Source of the DNA: Clostridia bacterium
GTDB lineage: Bacteria > Bacillota > Thermoanaerobacteria > Thermoanaerobacterales > Thermoanaerobacteraceae
DNA length: 36,582 nt
Direction: 5' to 3'
Assembly: GCA_012840485.1 (NCBI GenBank)
Contig: DULG01000083.1
Location: 1-36,582, forward strand
Shown: positions 6,825-36,582 of the stretch, piece after piece
Layout of the letters: every line of letters begins with the position of its first letter
Numbering within the stretch: the stretch's first letter is position 1
Translations under genes and position numbers: made by a program
The notes under the pieces: model-generated
Told to the model about the DNA's origin: nothing
Seen by the model: only the letters and a program-made list of their open reading frames with translations
The model's database searches: none

Positions 6825-7409
6825 TTACAAAATCCCTTTTGTGGAAGGTATACCATCTATTCTCTCATCTAATTGAAGTGCCTCATCAAGGGCTCTCCCT
6901 AACGCTTTAAAAGCTGCCTCTATAATGTGGTGTGTATTACTGCCGTGTAAAAGTTCTACATAGAGTGTTATCCCGAAAGTATAAGCAAAGGCTCTAAAAA
7001 ACTCTTCCACATTTTCTGTTTCAAAATCTCCAACTCTTTCAGATTTTAAAGGCAACTCATAATAAAGATAAGGCCTTCCACTTATATCAAGAGAAACTCT
7101 AACTAAAGCTTCATCCATAGGCACATAAAAAGTACTAAATCTCCTTATAGACTTTTTATCCCCTGAAGCTTTTAAAAAGGCAGTACCTAAAACTATACCA
7201 ACATCTTCAACAGTGTGATGAGTGTCTACTTCCAAATCTCCTTTCGCTATGAGCTTTAAATCAAAAAGGCCGTGCTTTGCAAAAAGGCAAAGCATGTGGT
7301 CAAAAAAACCTACCCCTGTCTGTATGTCATATACACCTTTCCCGTCTATGTTAAGGTCAACGTATATGTCTGTCTCAGTAGTCTTTCTTTTAACCTCTGC
7401 TCTCCTCAT
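6825..7409 (-). CDS. hisB: Imidazoleglycerol-phosphate dehydratase
   Basis: A 194-residue monofunctional IGPD. Two His-rich metal motifs are intact: DTHHTVEDVGI near residue 63 and THHIIEAAFKALGRAL near 160. It dehydrates IGP to imidazole acetol phosphate. Unlike enterobacterial HisB there is no N-terminal HAD phosphatase domain, so histidinol-phosphate phosphatase must come from another gene, which is absent from this operon. The start overlaps the hisC stop as ATGA. Confidence 0.97.
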   Translation of the reverse strand: MRRAEVKRKTTETDIYVDLNIDGKGVYDIQTGVGFFDHMLCLFAKHGLFDLKLIAKGDLEVDTHHTVEDVGIVLGTAFLKASGDKKSIRRFSTFYVPMDEALVRVSLDISGRPYLYYELPLKSERVGDFETENVEEFFRAFAYTFGITLYVELLHGSNTHHIIEAAFKALGRALDEALQLDERIDGIPSTKGIL

Positions 7410-32349: not shown

Positions 32350-32460
32350 CTCTCATCTCTCAGGTTAGACACCCTAACCTGCAGGATTTGGCACCAGGCG
32401 CATATAAATGCCGGTTGCCGGGTTTCATCGGGCCAGTCCCTCCACCACTCTTGATAAGAG
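32350..32460 (-). promoter_or_regulatory. SAM-I riboswitch (S-box) aptamer controlling metYX
   Basis: The P1 stem is CUCUUAUC (32460-32453) with GAUGAGAG (32357-32350), eight pairs. Inside are the S-box signatures AGAGUGGUGGAGGGACUGGC, the GAUGAAACCC segment, CGGCAACC, and the GGUGCCAAAUCC junction. When SAM binds, P1 forms and the terminator at 32300-32340 can fold; without SAM the 3' P1 strand is used in the antiterminator. Confidence 0.97.
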
Positions 32461-32703: not shown

Positions 32704-32862
32704 ATGGAAAAATGGCAATGTACAGTATGCGGCTACATATATGACCCTGAAGAAGGTGACCCATCACAAGGAATTGCACCAGGTACTCCTTTTGAAGAAT
32801 TGCCAGACGACTGGGTTTGCCCTGACTGTGGCGTAGGAAAAGATATGTTTGAAAAAATGTAA
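32704..32862 (+). CDS. Rubredoxin
   Basis: A complete 52-residue rubredoxin. The iron ligands are Cys6, Cys9, Cys39 and Cys42, in the motifs CTVCGYIYD and CPDCGVGKD. The aromatic core (Trp4, Tyr11, Tyr13, Phe30, Trp37, Phe49) and the conserved [12 protein letters not shown] are present. It is a small cytoplasmic one-electron carrier, used in anaerobes to feed oxygen- and superoxide-reducing enzymes; no partner gene lies next to it. AAAGGGGG sits 8 bases before the ATG and is fully complementary to the C-rich stretch of the small RNA at 2484-2553. Its terminator hairpin directly abuts the inserted element at 32881. Confidence 0.97.
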
Positions 32863-32880
32863 GGGAGTAAATGCTCCCTT
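32863..32880 (+). terminator. Rubredoxin terminator hairpin, separated from its T tract
   Basis: GGGAG-TAAATG-CTCCC immediately after the stop codon, followed by only TT before the inserted element. A near copy (33148-33164) on the far side of the element is followed by ATTTTTATTG, the T-rich tail expected of the original terminator. Confidence 0.65.
32864..32880 (+). repeat. Left copy of 17-bp flanking direct repeat
   Basis: GGAGTAAATGCTCCCTT. It matches 33148-33164 (GGAGTAAATACTCCCTT) at 16 of 17 positions. The two copies bracket the element at 32881-33144, with only AAT between the element's right end and the right copy. Confidence 0.7.
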
Positions 32881-33144
32881 CAGACTGTAGACAAACTTTC
32901 GTAAAGGAGATATTTTGCATAAGGAGCGACTTGTTACAAAGCGCTAACAAAACTTAGCAAGACCGAGGGTGGAGGCAGGGCCGTAGCCAAGGATGGCGGA
33001 GGCGGGTACTAAGACAAGGATGTCGAATGTACCCGGTACCCTGCCGGAACCCGAAGGTCGAGCTTTAGTTTTGTCGTTTTGGAACATCGGAGCAACGATG
33101 CAAAATATCTCCTTTGAATATTTTTTAACTTTGTCAACAAACTG
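32881..33144. mobile_element. MITE-like structured element with nested inverted ends and GGA hairpins
   Basis: 264 bases with no ORF. The outer ends are imperfect inverted repeats (CAGACTGTAGACAAACTT against CAGTTTGTTGACAAAGTT, 14 of 18). Inner ends are perfect 18-base inverted repeats at 32903-32920 and 33098-33115. The GC-rich core folds on paper: ACAAAACT with AGTTTTGT (32947/33067), GACC with GGTC (32961/33056), GGGT with ACCC, a symmetric GGA/GGA internal loop, and GGCAGGG with CCCTGCC (32974/33039). That stem closes a junction of the hairpins GCC-AAGGAT-GGC (32986) and CGGGTAC/GTACCCG (33003/33029), the latter capped by GAC-AAGGAT-GTC. It is flanked by the 17-base direct repeat, so it looks transposed. 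Family not recognised. Confidence 0.7.
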
Positions 33145-33147
33145 AAT

Positions 33148-33164
33148 GGAGTAAATACTCCCTT
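33148..33164 (+). repeat. Right copy of 17-bp flanking direct repeat
   Basis: GGAGTAAATACTCCCTT, one mismatch from 32864-32880. It still forms a GGAGT/ACTCC hairpin and is followed by a T-rich run. Confidence 0.7.
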
Positions 33165-36432: not shown

Positions 36433-36458
36433 AAATGCCAGGATTTAACCTGGCATTT
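36433..36458 (+). terminator. Terminator hairpin after the DUF2148 gene
   Basis: Perfect 10-base stem AAATGCCAGG / CCTGGCATTT with loop ATTTAA, directly after the stop. Only TTT remains before the repeat end at 36459, so its T tract appears cut short. Confidence 0.75.
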
Positions 36459-36582
36459 CAGTTTGTTGACAAAGCAAAATTTAAGCCCATGTTTTCCCAG
36501 TTTCGAAAGCAGGGGCTGTATATATCTGGATAAAATTTTCTTTAAAACTCCAAATAATGGATAAAAGTTTAAAGTATCTAAA
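36459..36582 (-). mobile_element. Probable end of an insertion sequence running off the window
   Basis: Positions 36459-36474 (CAGTTTGTTGACAAAG) are identical, in reverse orientation, to the right end of the element at 33129-33144. The sequence inside is different. A minus-strand reading frame enters from the window edge and stops 22 bases from the repeat end, as transposase genes often do. The IS family cannot be named from this fragment. Confidence 0.45.
36481..36582 (-). CDS. C-terminal fragment of a possible transposase
   Basis: Open for 33 codons from the window edge to TAA at 36483-36481, ending IQIYTAPAFETGKTWA. No conserved catalytic motif falls in this stretch and I do not recognise the family. 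It is called only because of its position just inside the shared repeat end; it could be a chance frame. Confidence 0.3.
   Translation of the reverse strand, partial: FRYFKLLSIIWSFKENFIQIYTAPAFETGKTWA

Follow-up and report, generated by a model that had tools for sequence, protein, structure and literature searches.

A small IS1182-type element of Thermoanaerobacter duplicates terminator hairpins and carries a TwoAYGGAY-like RNA with predicted CsrA-binding loops

The window, that is, the whole stretch of 36,582 nucleotides analyzed here, contains behind a rubredoxin gene an element of 264 bp (32881–33144) in which a reading of the open reading frames revealed no transposase gene. The features of the locus are as follows.

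32704–32862, + strand: rubredoxin gene (Pfam Rubredoxin, 92.3 bits), whose terminator is the insertion target
32861–32880, no strand: left copy of the terminator hairpin, AAGGGAGTAAATGCTCCCTT, a target-site duplication; direct repeat with the right flank at 18 of 20 positions
32881–32898, + strand: outer left end, CAGACTGTAGACAAACTT, an end sequence common to the resident IS1182-family elements
32888–32916, + strand: weak predicted promoter-like sequence TAGACA-17-TATTTT (9 of 12 matches), aimed into the RNA
32903–32920, + strand: inner left inverted repeat, 18/18 with 33098–33115
32926–33093, + strand: conserved TwoAYGGAY-like RNA core, a rod with two side hairpins (matches to RF01731 and to our model R1)
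32986–32997, + strand: hairpin 1, GCC-AAGGAU-GGC; loop GGA 99–100% conserved in 100 genus copies
33013–33024, + strand: hairpin 2, GAC-AAGGAU-GUC, which includes ACAAGGAUGU, the last ten bases of the SELEX consensus RUACARGGAUGU
33098–33115, + strand: inner right inverted repeat, from sequence reading
33127–33144, + strand: outer right end, AACTTTGTCAACAAACTG, from sequence reading and the end search
33145–33164, no strand: right copy of the terminator hairpin, with the T-tract behind it on the + strand; the six empty orthologous sites have this hairpin once
36433–36582, no strand: terminator hairpin AAATGCCAGGATTTAACCTGGCATTT, then a right-type end CAGTTTGTTGACAAA (36459–36473) that belongs to an IS1182-type element truncated by the window edge

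An earlier note on this DNA had described two nested layers of inverted ends, twin hairpins with the same hexaloop and nine GGA triplets. All of these can be read from the sequence: the outer ends (32881–32898 and 33127–33144) pair at 14 of 18 positions and the inner ends (32903–32920 and 33098–33115) at 18 of 18, the hairpins are present as GCC-AAGGAT-GGC (32986–32997) and GAC-AAGGAT-GTC (33013–33024), and GGA occurs between 32903 and 33115 at 32906, 32923, 32971, 32991, 32998, 33018, 33046, 33081, and 33089. Absent from that note was the same terminator hairpin flanking the element on both sides (32861–32880 and 33145–33164). At gathering cut-offs, Rfam reported for the window only a SAM riboswitch (RF00162, 93.4 bits, 32350–32460, − strand), TwoAYGGAY being visible only in E-value mode, and a tRNA scan of the window returned none. 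From their translations, we take the genes behind the riboswitch on the − strand to be methionine-biosynthesis genes.

The ends of the element, CAGACTGTNGACAAA and CAGTTTGTTGACAAA, also bound longer elements of the same genome, and a search with CAGNCTGTNGACAAA allowing at most one mismatch returned both element and IS copies. One such IS copy, on contig C6, has its ends at 7092 and 8653 and a transposase split into several open reading frames. Searched separately, three of the transposase pieces had IS1182 as their best NCBIfam match (197.6, 190.9, and 57.7 bits), each scoring lower than the 270-bit cut-off that applies to the whole protein, and two pieces matched Pfam DUF772 and DDE_Tnp_1_6. 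The shared ends and the IS1182 transposase pieces thus identify the 264-bp element as a MITE of the IS1182 group, which the IS transposase would mobilize in trans. The autonomous C6 copy matched the element query over an end only, which shows that the same ends work without the RNA core. For the IS1182-type element at the window edge, the other end is probably the one on contig C2, which adjoins the same 26-bp hairpin. On contig C76 of the source genome (G000), a stretch of about 300 bp (L069, 1383–1683) has IS1182-type ends and no core match and represents another cargo MITE. The part of PMC12056078 available to us reports an IS1182-like element in T. kivui.

To define the target site, we surveyed the flanks of 107 full-length copies, all distinct once duplicates among an initial 113 had been removed; these are a subset of the 374 core-model hits described below. 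In 88 of the 107, both ends are immediately adjoined by a direct repeat of 16–35 bp (identity 80% or more), and 85 of these 88 can form a hairpin with five or more pairs. As a control, left flanks were combined at random with right flanks from other copies, and 3 of 2124 combinations passed. Exact direct repeats range from 16 bp (L180) to 33 bp (L122) and are hairpin-length. Among the 19 copies that failed the repeat test, hairpins on both sides were recognized by eye in L005, L133, L145, and L164; L127, L157, and L161 had no flanking hairpins by eye. From these hairpin-forming repeats at both ends, we conclude that the element targets terminators and duplicates the whole hairpin. The window locus has an orthologous match in six of the nine other genus genomes, and all six sites are empty, with one hairpin and no element between the rubredoxin gene and a KdpD-domain gene. 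Three autonomous IS copies of the source genome likewise have the same hairpin on both sides: the one on C6, one on C3 with C37, and the one at the window edge with C2, the latter two assembled from contig ends paired by identical hairpins.

IS1272 and TnSha1 share the IS1182 transposase family with the resident IS and, like the present element, use terminator hairpins as target (PMC4923244, PMC5678879). According to the portions of these papers we used, they delete or replace the stem-loop without duplicating it, whereas here the whole hairpin is duplicated. Target replacement of the IS1272 type was therefore rejected for our element, given the duplicated repeats in 88 of 107 copies and the empty sites with a single hairpin. 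Hairpin duplication is drawn in PMC5678879, as far as the part at hand goes, merely as a possible pathway b, and the copies of the present element fit this pathway.

The earlier note had suggested looking for copies in related genomes. Such searches returned many, with a core that is conserved between them. The element occurs many times within the source genome and, by DNA search of 41 relatives (E up to 1e-5), in all 10 genomes of the genus and in six of nine genomes of the sister genus, where each has one match; it was found in none of the 22 remaining relatives. An exact pattern search of a named genome collection returned 21 stretches, every one of them from Thermoanaerobacter; T. wiegelii Rt8.B1 is among the strains with copies. 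A covariance model of the core hit each of the 10 genus genomes 14–90 times, at least 374 times in total, with 150 out of 330–514 first-look candidates scored per genome. These hits are not equal to copies: the 14 hits of genome G003, the one inspected for this, correspond to 13 places. Some copies (L021, L023, L026, and others) are 326–333 bp long and carry near the rod base about 70 bp extra with a hairpin of its own (CCCGGCACTCAAGTAAG...CTTACTTGAGTGCCGGG), which is also found in a 75%-identical copy and has in L070 a relative with different letters.

The sister-genus copies (L039–L044, in six of nine genomes) are single, have no IS ends and share alike flanking sequence. From translations of the flanking open reading frames, checked at three of these loci, the neighbors are presumably S41 protease and glycerate kinase genes. 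One of the six, L044, has lost hairpin 2. This pattern suggests that the sister-genus copies are a fossil or domesticated form of the RNA.

Folded with 10-base flanks, the + strand of the element reached −127.8 kcal/mol compared to −73.0 ± 4.8 kcal/mol in 200 dinucleotide shuffles (z −11.5), none of which was as good, and in the predicted transcript the GGAs of the two loops have an unpaired probability of 1.0. The − strand folds almost as well (z −10.4), so that the fold alone cannot tell the RNA strand. Base-pair changes were analyzed in an alignment of 22 sequences, namely 13 genus cores including the window, five sister-genus copies and four diverged ones. The genus cores were drawn from 39 non-redundant cores (which included L045 and L054), and L044 was left out on account of its deleted hairpin 2. 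Here the paired fraction of cells is 96.4%, and changes on both sides occur at 18 of 49 pairs (10.3 in shuffles, with 18 reached in none of 500); further pair types are no more numerous than in shuffles (33 vs. 34.8). A larger alignment of 64 sequences, which leans toward the model as it was fitted to it, has 90.5% paired cells (53.3% when shuffled), 48 of 49 compensated pairs (43.6 in shuffles) and 1117 cells changed on both sides (348 in shuffles). Hence the stems, for which the earlier note had named uncompensated changes and an unconserved core as contrary evidence, contain compensated pairs in both the 22- and the 64-sequence sets.

On the + strand, G-U outnumbers A-C in the core about two to one in all three sets counted (26:12, 98:50, and 112:53), as expected if the + strand is the RNA. 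Counted by pair, the excess is significant in the model-fitted alignment only (29 vs. 7) and not in the other two sets (14 vs. 8 and 17 vs. 9). In the outer ends the ratio is reversed (57:126). Genus G-U counts and column conservation refer to the copies shorter than 300 bp, which number 100 out of 107.

These data bear on the simplest view of the element, an ordinary MITE whose core is DNA ballast with a structure inherited from the palindromic ends. It is non-autonomous, multicopy, and bounded by inverted ends, all of which such a view predicts. However, the compensated pairs lie in the core and not just in the ends, and the core is common to RF01731 RNAs with other ends and to the syntenic sister-genus copies without IS ends. 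The covariation thus disfavors ballast, and we regard it as highly improbable. Both halves of the earlier description as a MITE-like element with a selected RNA core are upheld, the first by the copies, the empty sites and the IS1182-type ends, the second by the compensatory changes; a mobile element with a selected RNA is very likely.

At permissive settings, the core matches the Rfam family TwoAYGGAY (RF01731) at 32930–33088 over all model positions (1–168 of 168) with 31.1 bits and an E-value of 0.0034. The gathering threshold is 43 bits, which the window copy misses. Six of 18 genus and sister-genus loci scanned with RF01731 matched, the best sister-genus copy scoring 42.7 bits, and hits in genome G153, whose L212–L215 have IS1182-type ends, reached 63.8 bits. 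In the reverse direction, model R1, built from the element and near relatives only (22 sequences), scored the window core at 197.9 bits, the window being part of its training set, and recovered 56 of 64 RF01731 loci from other families. The likeness thus comprises the same topology of a rod with two adjacent GGA-loop hairpins, a full-length match and reciprocal recovery, whereas the window copy differs by its sub-threshold score, its AAGGAU loops, its location inside a transposable element and the 14–90 hits per genome. Against the family motif A-Y-GGA-Y, the window has AAGGAU twice and other genus copies have ATGGAT or ACGGAT. By its sequence and fold, the core is very likely a TwoAYGGAY relative, which the Rfam cut-off places outside the family.

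RF01731 matched 50 of 398 genomes of the phylum (33 above the cut-off; 34 of the 50 with at least two hits) in a survey that scored at most six candidates per genome. Beyond the genus and sister genus, 45 genomes bear RF01731; in 31 of them we analyzed the flanks of 63 hits, leaving out duplicate places and L114, which lies at a contig start. Ten of the 63 are bounded on both sides by IS1182-type ends with at least 11 of 15 matches; they come from five of the 31 genomes (G067, G144, G153, G193, and G286), which represent four families. A reversed-motif control reached at least 11 matches in three of 63 left and two of 63 right flanks. The duplicated hairpin was visible by eye in six of the ten (L105, L212, L213, L215, L247, and L249). 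Other TwoAYGGAY hits (in G275, in G020, and at L099) are surrounded by different long inverted ends. At L204 and L205 of G275, the RNA is enclosed by long inverted repeats that have 'gagtcacggggacggtt...tgactca' repeats on their outer side, and a different type of mobile repeat seems to carry the same RNA there. Among those papers naming TwoAYGGAY that were covered in part, we found none linking it to transposons.

A 2014 paper matched TwoAYGGAY to the CsrA-binding motif and, in the section consulted, proposed CsrA sequestration in Clostridia (PMC4333381). The SELEX consensus of CsrA is RUACARGGAUGU, with the GGA preferably in a hairpin loop (PMC4347634, cited from part of its text). In the window, ACAAGGAUGU is the sole exact ACARGGATGT; 0.15 are expected, and 15 of 100 shuffles have one. 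Exact ACARGGATGT is found in 25 of 107 genus cores (the full-length matches among 140 of a profile search), and a regular expression detected GGA in both loops in 94 of the 107. In the 100 genus copies, the loop GGA columns are 97–100% conserved, whereas the hexaloop position N reaches 48% in loop 1 and 64% in loop 2 and the last loop base 91% and 59%, respectively. Half or more of the core columns are at least 98% conserved, so it is this contrast within the loops that counts. Of the 56 aligned sequences from outside the family, 55 carry GGA in each of the two loops; part of this conservation is ascertainment, since the RF01731 search favors GGA loops.

Whether the genome encodes CsrA was a question raised in the earlier note, and it does: csrA directly follows fliW, and its product is similar to solved CsrA homologues. 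We take the next gene, from reading its sequence, to encode flagellin. CsrA is encoded in 285 of 398 phylum genomes and co-occurs with the RNA, being found in 48 of 50 RF01731-bearing genomes compared to 237 of 348 others (Fisher p 4e-6) and, at the genus level, in at least 38 of 40 genera with the RNA compared to 157 of 226 without it (p 2e-4); these statistics hold at the genome and genus levels only, with deeper phylogeny, genome size, and motility uncontrolled. The two exceptions are G213, where at 94% completeness neither CsrA nor FliW was detected despite at least six RF01731 hits (two of which, L092 and L245, were inspected and have GGA loops), and G265, likewise without detected CsrA or FliW (75% complete, one RF01731 hit, E 0.001).

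Genome G003, a genus member with CsrA, has 12 intact copies that keep the IS1182-type ends and the rod and have no GGA loops. Among these copies (L264–L275), the loops are short and A-rich (GAAA, GAA, AAA, UGAAA, and others). The duplicated hairpin was recognized by eye in 11 of the 12, and L269 has two different hairpins. The two remaining hits are a diverged relic and an opposite-strand hit that overlaps one of the 12. The G003 copies show that both mobility and retention of the rod are possible without the GGA loops. Loss of CsrA as the reason for the loss of the loops was rejected, as CsrA was found in G003. GGA in more than one hairpin loop, as a sponge should have, is present in the window element and absent from the G003 lineage.

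This lineage speaks for a view in which the core has nothing to do with CsrA but is a structural passenger that, as an RNA rod or single-stranded DNA, insulates the insertion from transcription, resists RNases or aids transposition, the GGA loops binding something else or nothing. The G003 rods still lie in terminators, two RNA-bearing genomes are without detected CsrA, and insertions show no orientation bias: in tandem gene pairs, 38 are sense and 25 antisense by simple open reading frame calls. Outside G003, however, GGA is near-invariant in both loops while neighboring loop bases vary, the RNA co-occurs with CsrA, and the end-only match of the C6 IS argues that the ends do not need the core. 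On balance, we judge a CsrA-independent passenger to be rather unlikely. The prediction that the RNA core binds CsrA appears to us the better supported one, and we consider such binding probable. For the RNA sponge suggested in the earlier note, the relation to TwoAYGGAY, the GGA conservation, the ACARGGAUGU site of hairpin 2 and the co-occurrence with CsrA give indirect support.

The same orientation counts bear on how the RNA might be made. An orientation bias as a sign of sense transcription was sought and rejected on the 38 to 25 split; the other contexts comprise 34 convergent and five divergent gene pairs (simple open reading frame calls), and a right-only T-tract in 20 copies is matched by a left-only A-tract in 19. 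At the window locus, the left hairpin copy (32861–32880) has no T-tract behind it on the + strand and is terminator-like on the − strand. Upstream transcripts could thus enter the element, as would suit a 3′ UTR element that acts in cis on the stability or termination of its host mRNA, perhaps via CsrA, instead of a free sponge. Some plausibility also comes from the E. coli sRNAs rrA/B/F (PMC8144298, in the part seen), which are flanked by dual terminators, arise by read-through and interact with CsrA in vitro. Against it, 25 of 63 tandem-gene insertions are antisense, and we consider a cis-acting element improbable.

A separate transcript could start within the left end. There are three promoter-like sites in 351 bases compared to 0.9 ± 0.9 in shuffles, the −10 hexamer of the TAGACA-17-TATTTT site is 99–100% conserved in the 100 genus copies, and TTGACA-17-TATTAT occupies the corresponding end of the IS copy in L062. 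Inspection by eye of flanks from G153 and G003 did not reveal a promoter common to all IS1182-ended relatives. The promoter-like sequence is a weak prediction.

Taken together, we favor, with a probability of about 0.6, the reading that the element is a non-autonomous IS1182 relative that duplicates its target terminator hairpin and carries a TwoAYGGAY-like RNA, likely transcribed and predicted to bind CsrA via its two GGA loops. The IS1182 transposase would act in trans and, once the hairpin is extruded, join the ends at its 5′ feet. Transcription of the RNA would start at the left-end promoter or come from the upstream gene, reading past the left hairpin, and would stop at the right hairpin copy. 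Its two hairpins may bind one CsrA dimer and thereby take CsrA from mRNA targets, in which case copy number would set the sponge dose. Landing in terminators that are duplicated would spare host genes and give each new RNA gene a 3′ end. More tentatively, and with more doubt than confidence, we extend this reading to TwoAYGGAY as a whole, as a transposable CsrA-sponge gene between IS1182-type ends that inserts into terminators only, acquires its own 3′ end by hairpin duplication, leaves the host gene unhurt, and sets free CsrA by its copy number, the same RNA having been carried across Clostridia by other transposon types.

In its GGA-bearing hairpin loops of the CsrA-binding type and in the proposed titration, the RNA resembles CsrB/CsrC and RsmX/Y/Z. 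CsrB has 18 sites (PMC4347634, part consulted) in many repeats, whereas here two side hairpins sit on a rod that is mobile and multicopy and for which binding is predicted. To E. coli rrA/rrB/rrF, small RNAs between two terminators that interact with CsrA in vitro according to the part of PMC8144298 considered here, the likeness is one of arrangement, and unlike the present element these lie in three rRNA operons.

With these findings, the orphan Rfam RNA TwoAYGGAY can be explained genomically, for part of its range at least, as the cargo of transposons, and CsrA becomes a candidate partner open to testing. The terminator-sized target duplications give genomic support to a hairpin-guided transposition pathway that, in the part of PMC5678879 available, had only been drawn. 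If the CsrA step is true, a transposon is titrating a regulator that acts globally after transcription, and the range of 14–90 hits per genome offers a natural series of doses, for which G003, with 12 intact copies lacking both GGA loops, serves as a natural control. Spread of the element would then likely seed RNAs predicted to trap CsrA around the genome.
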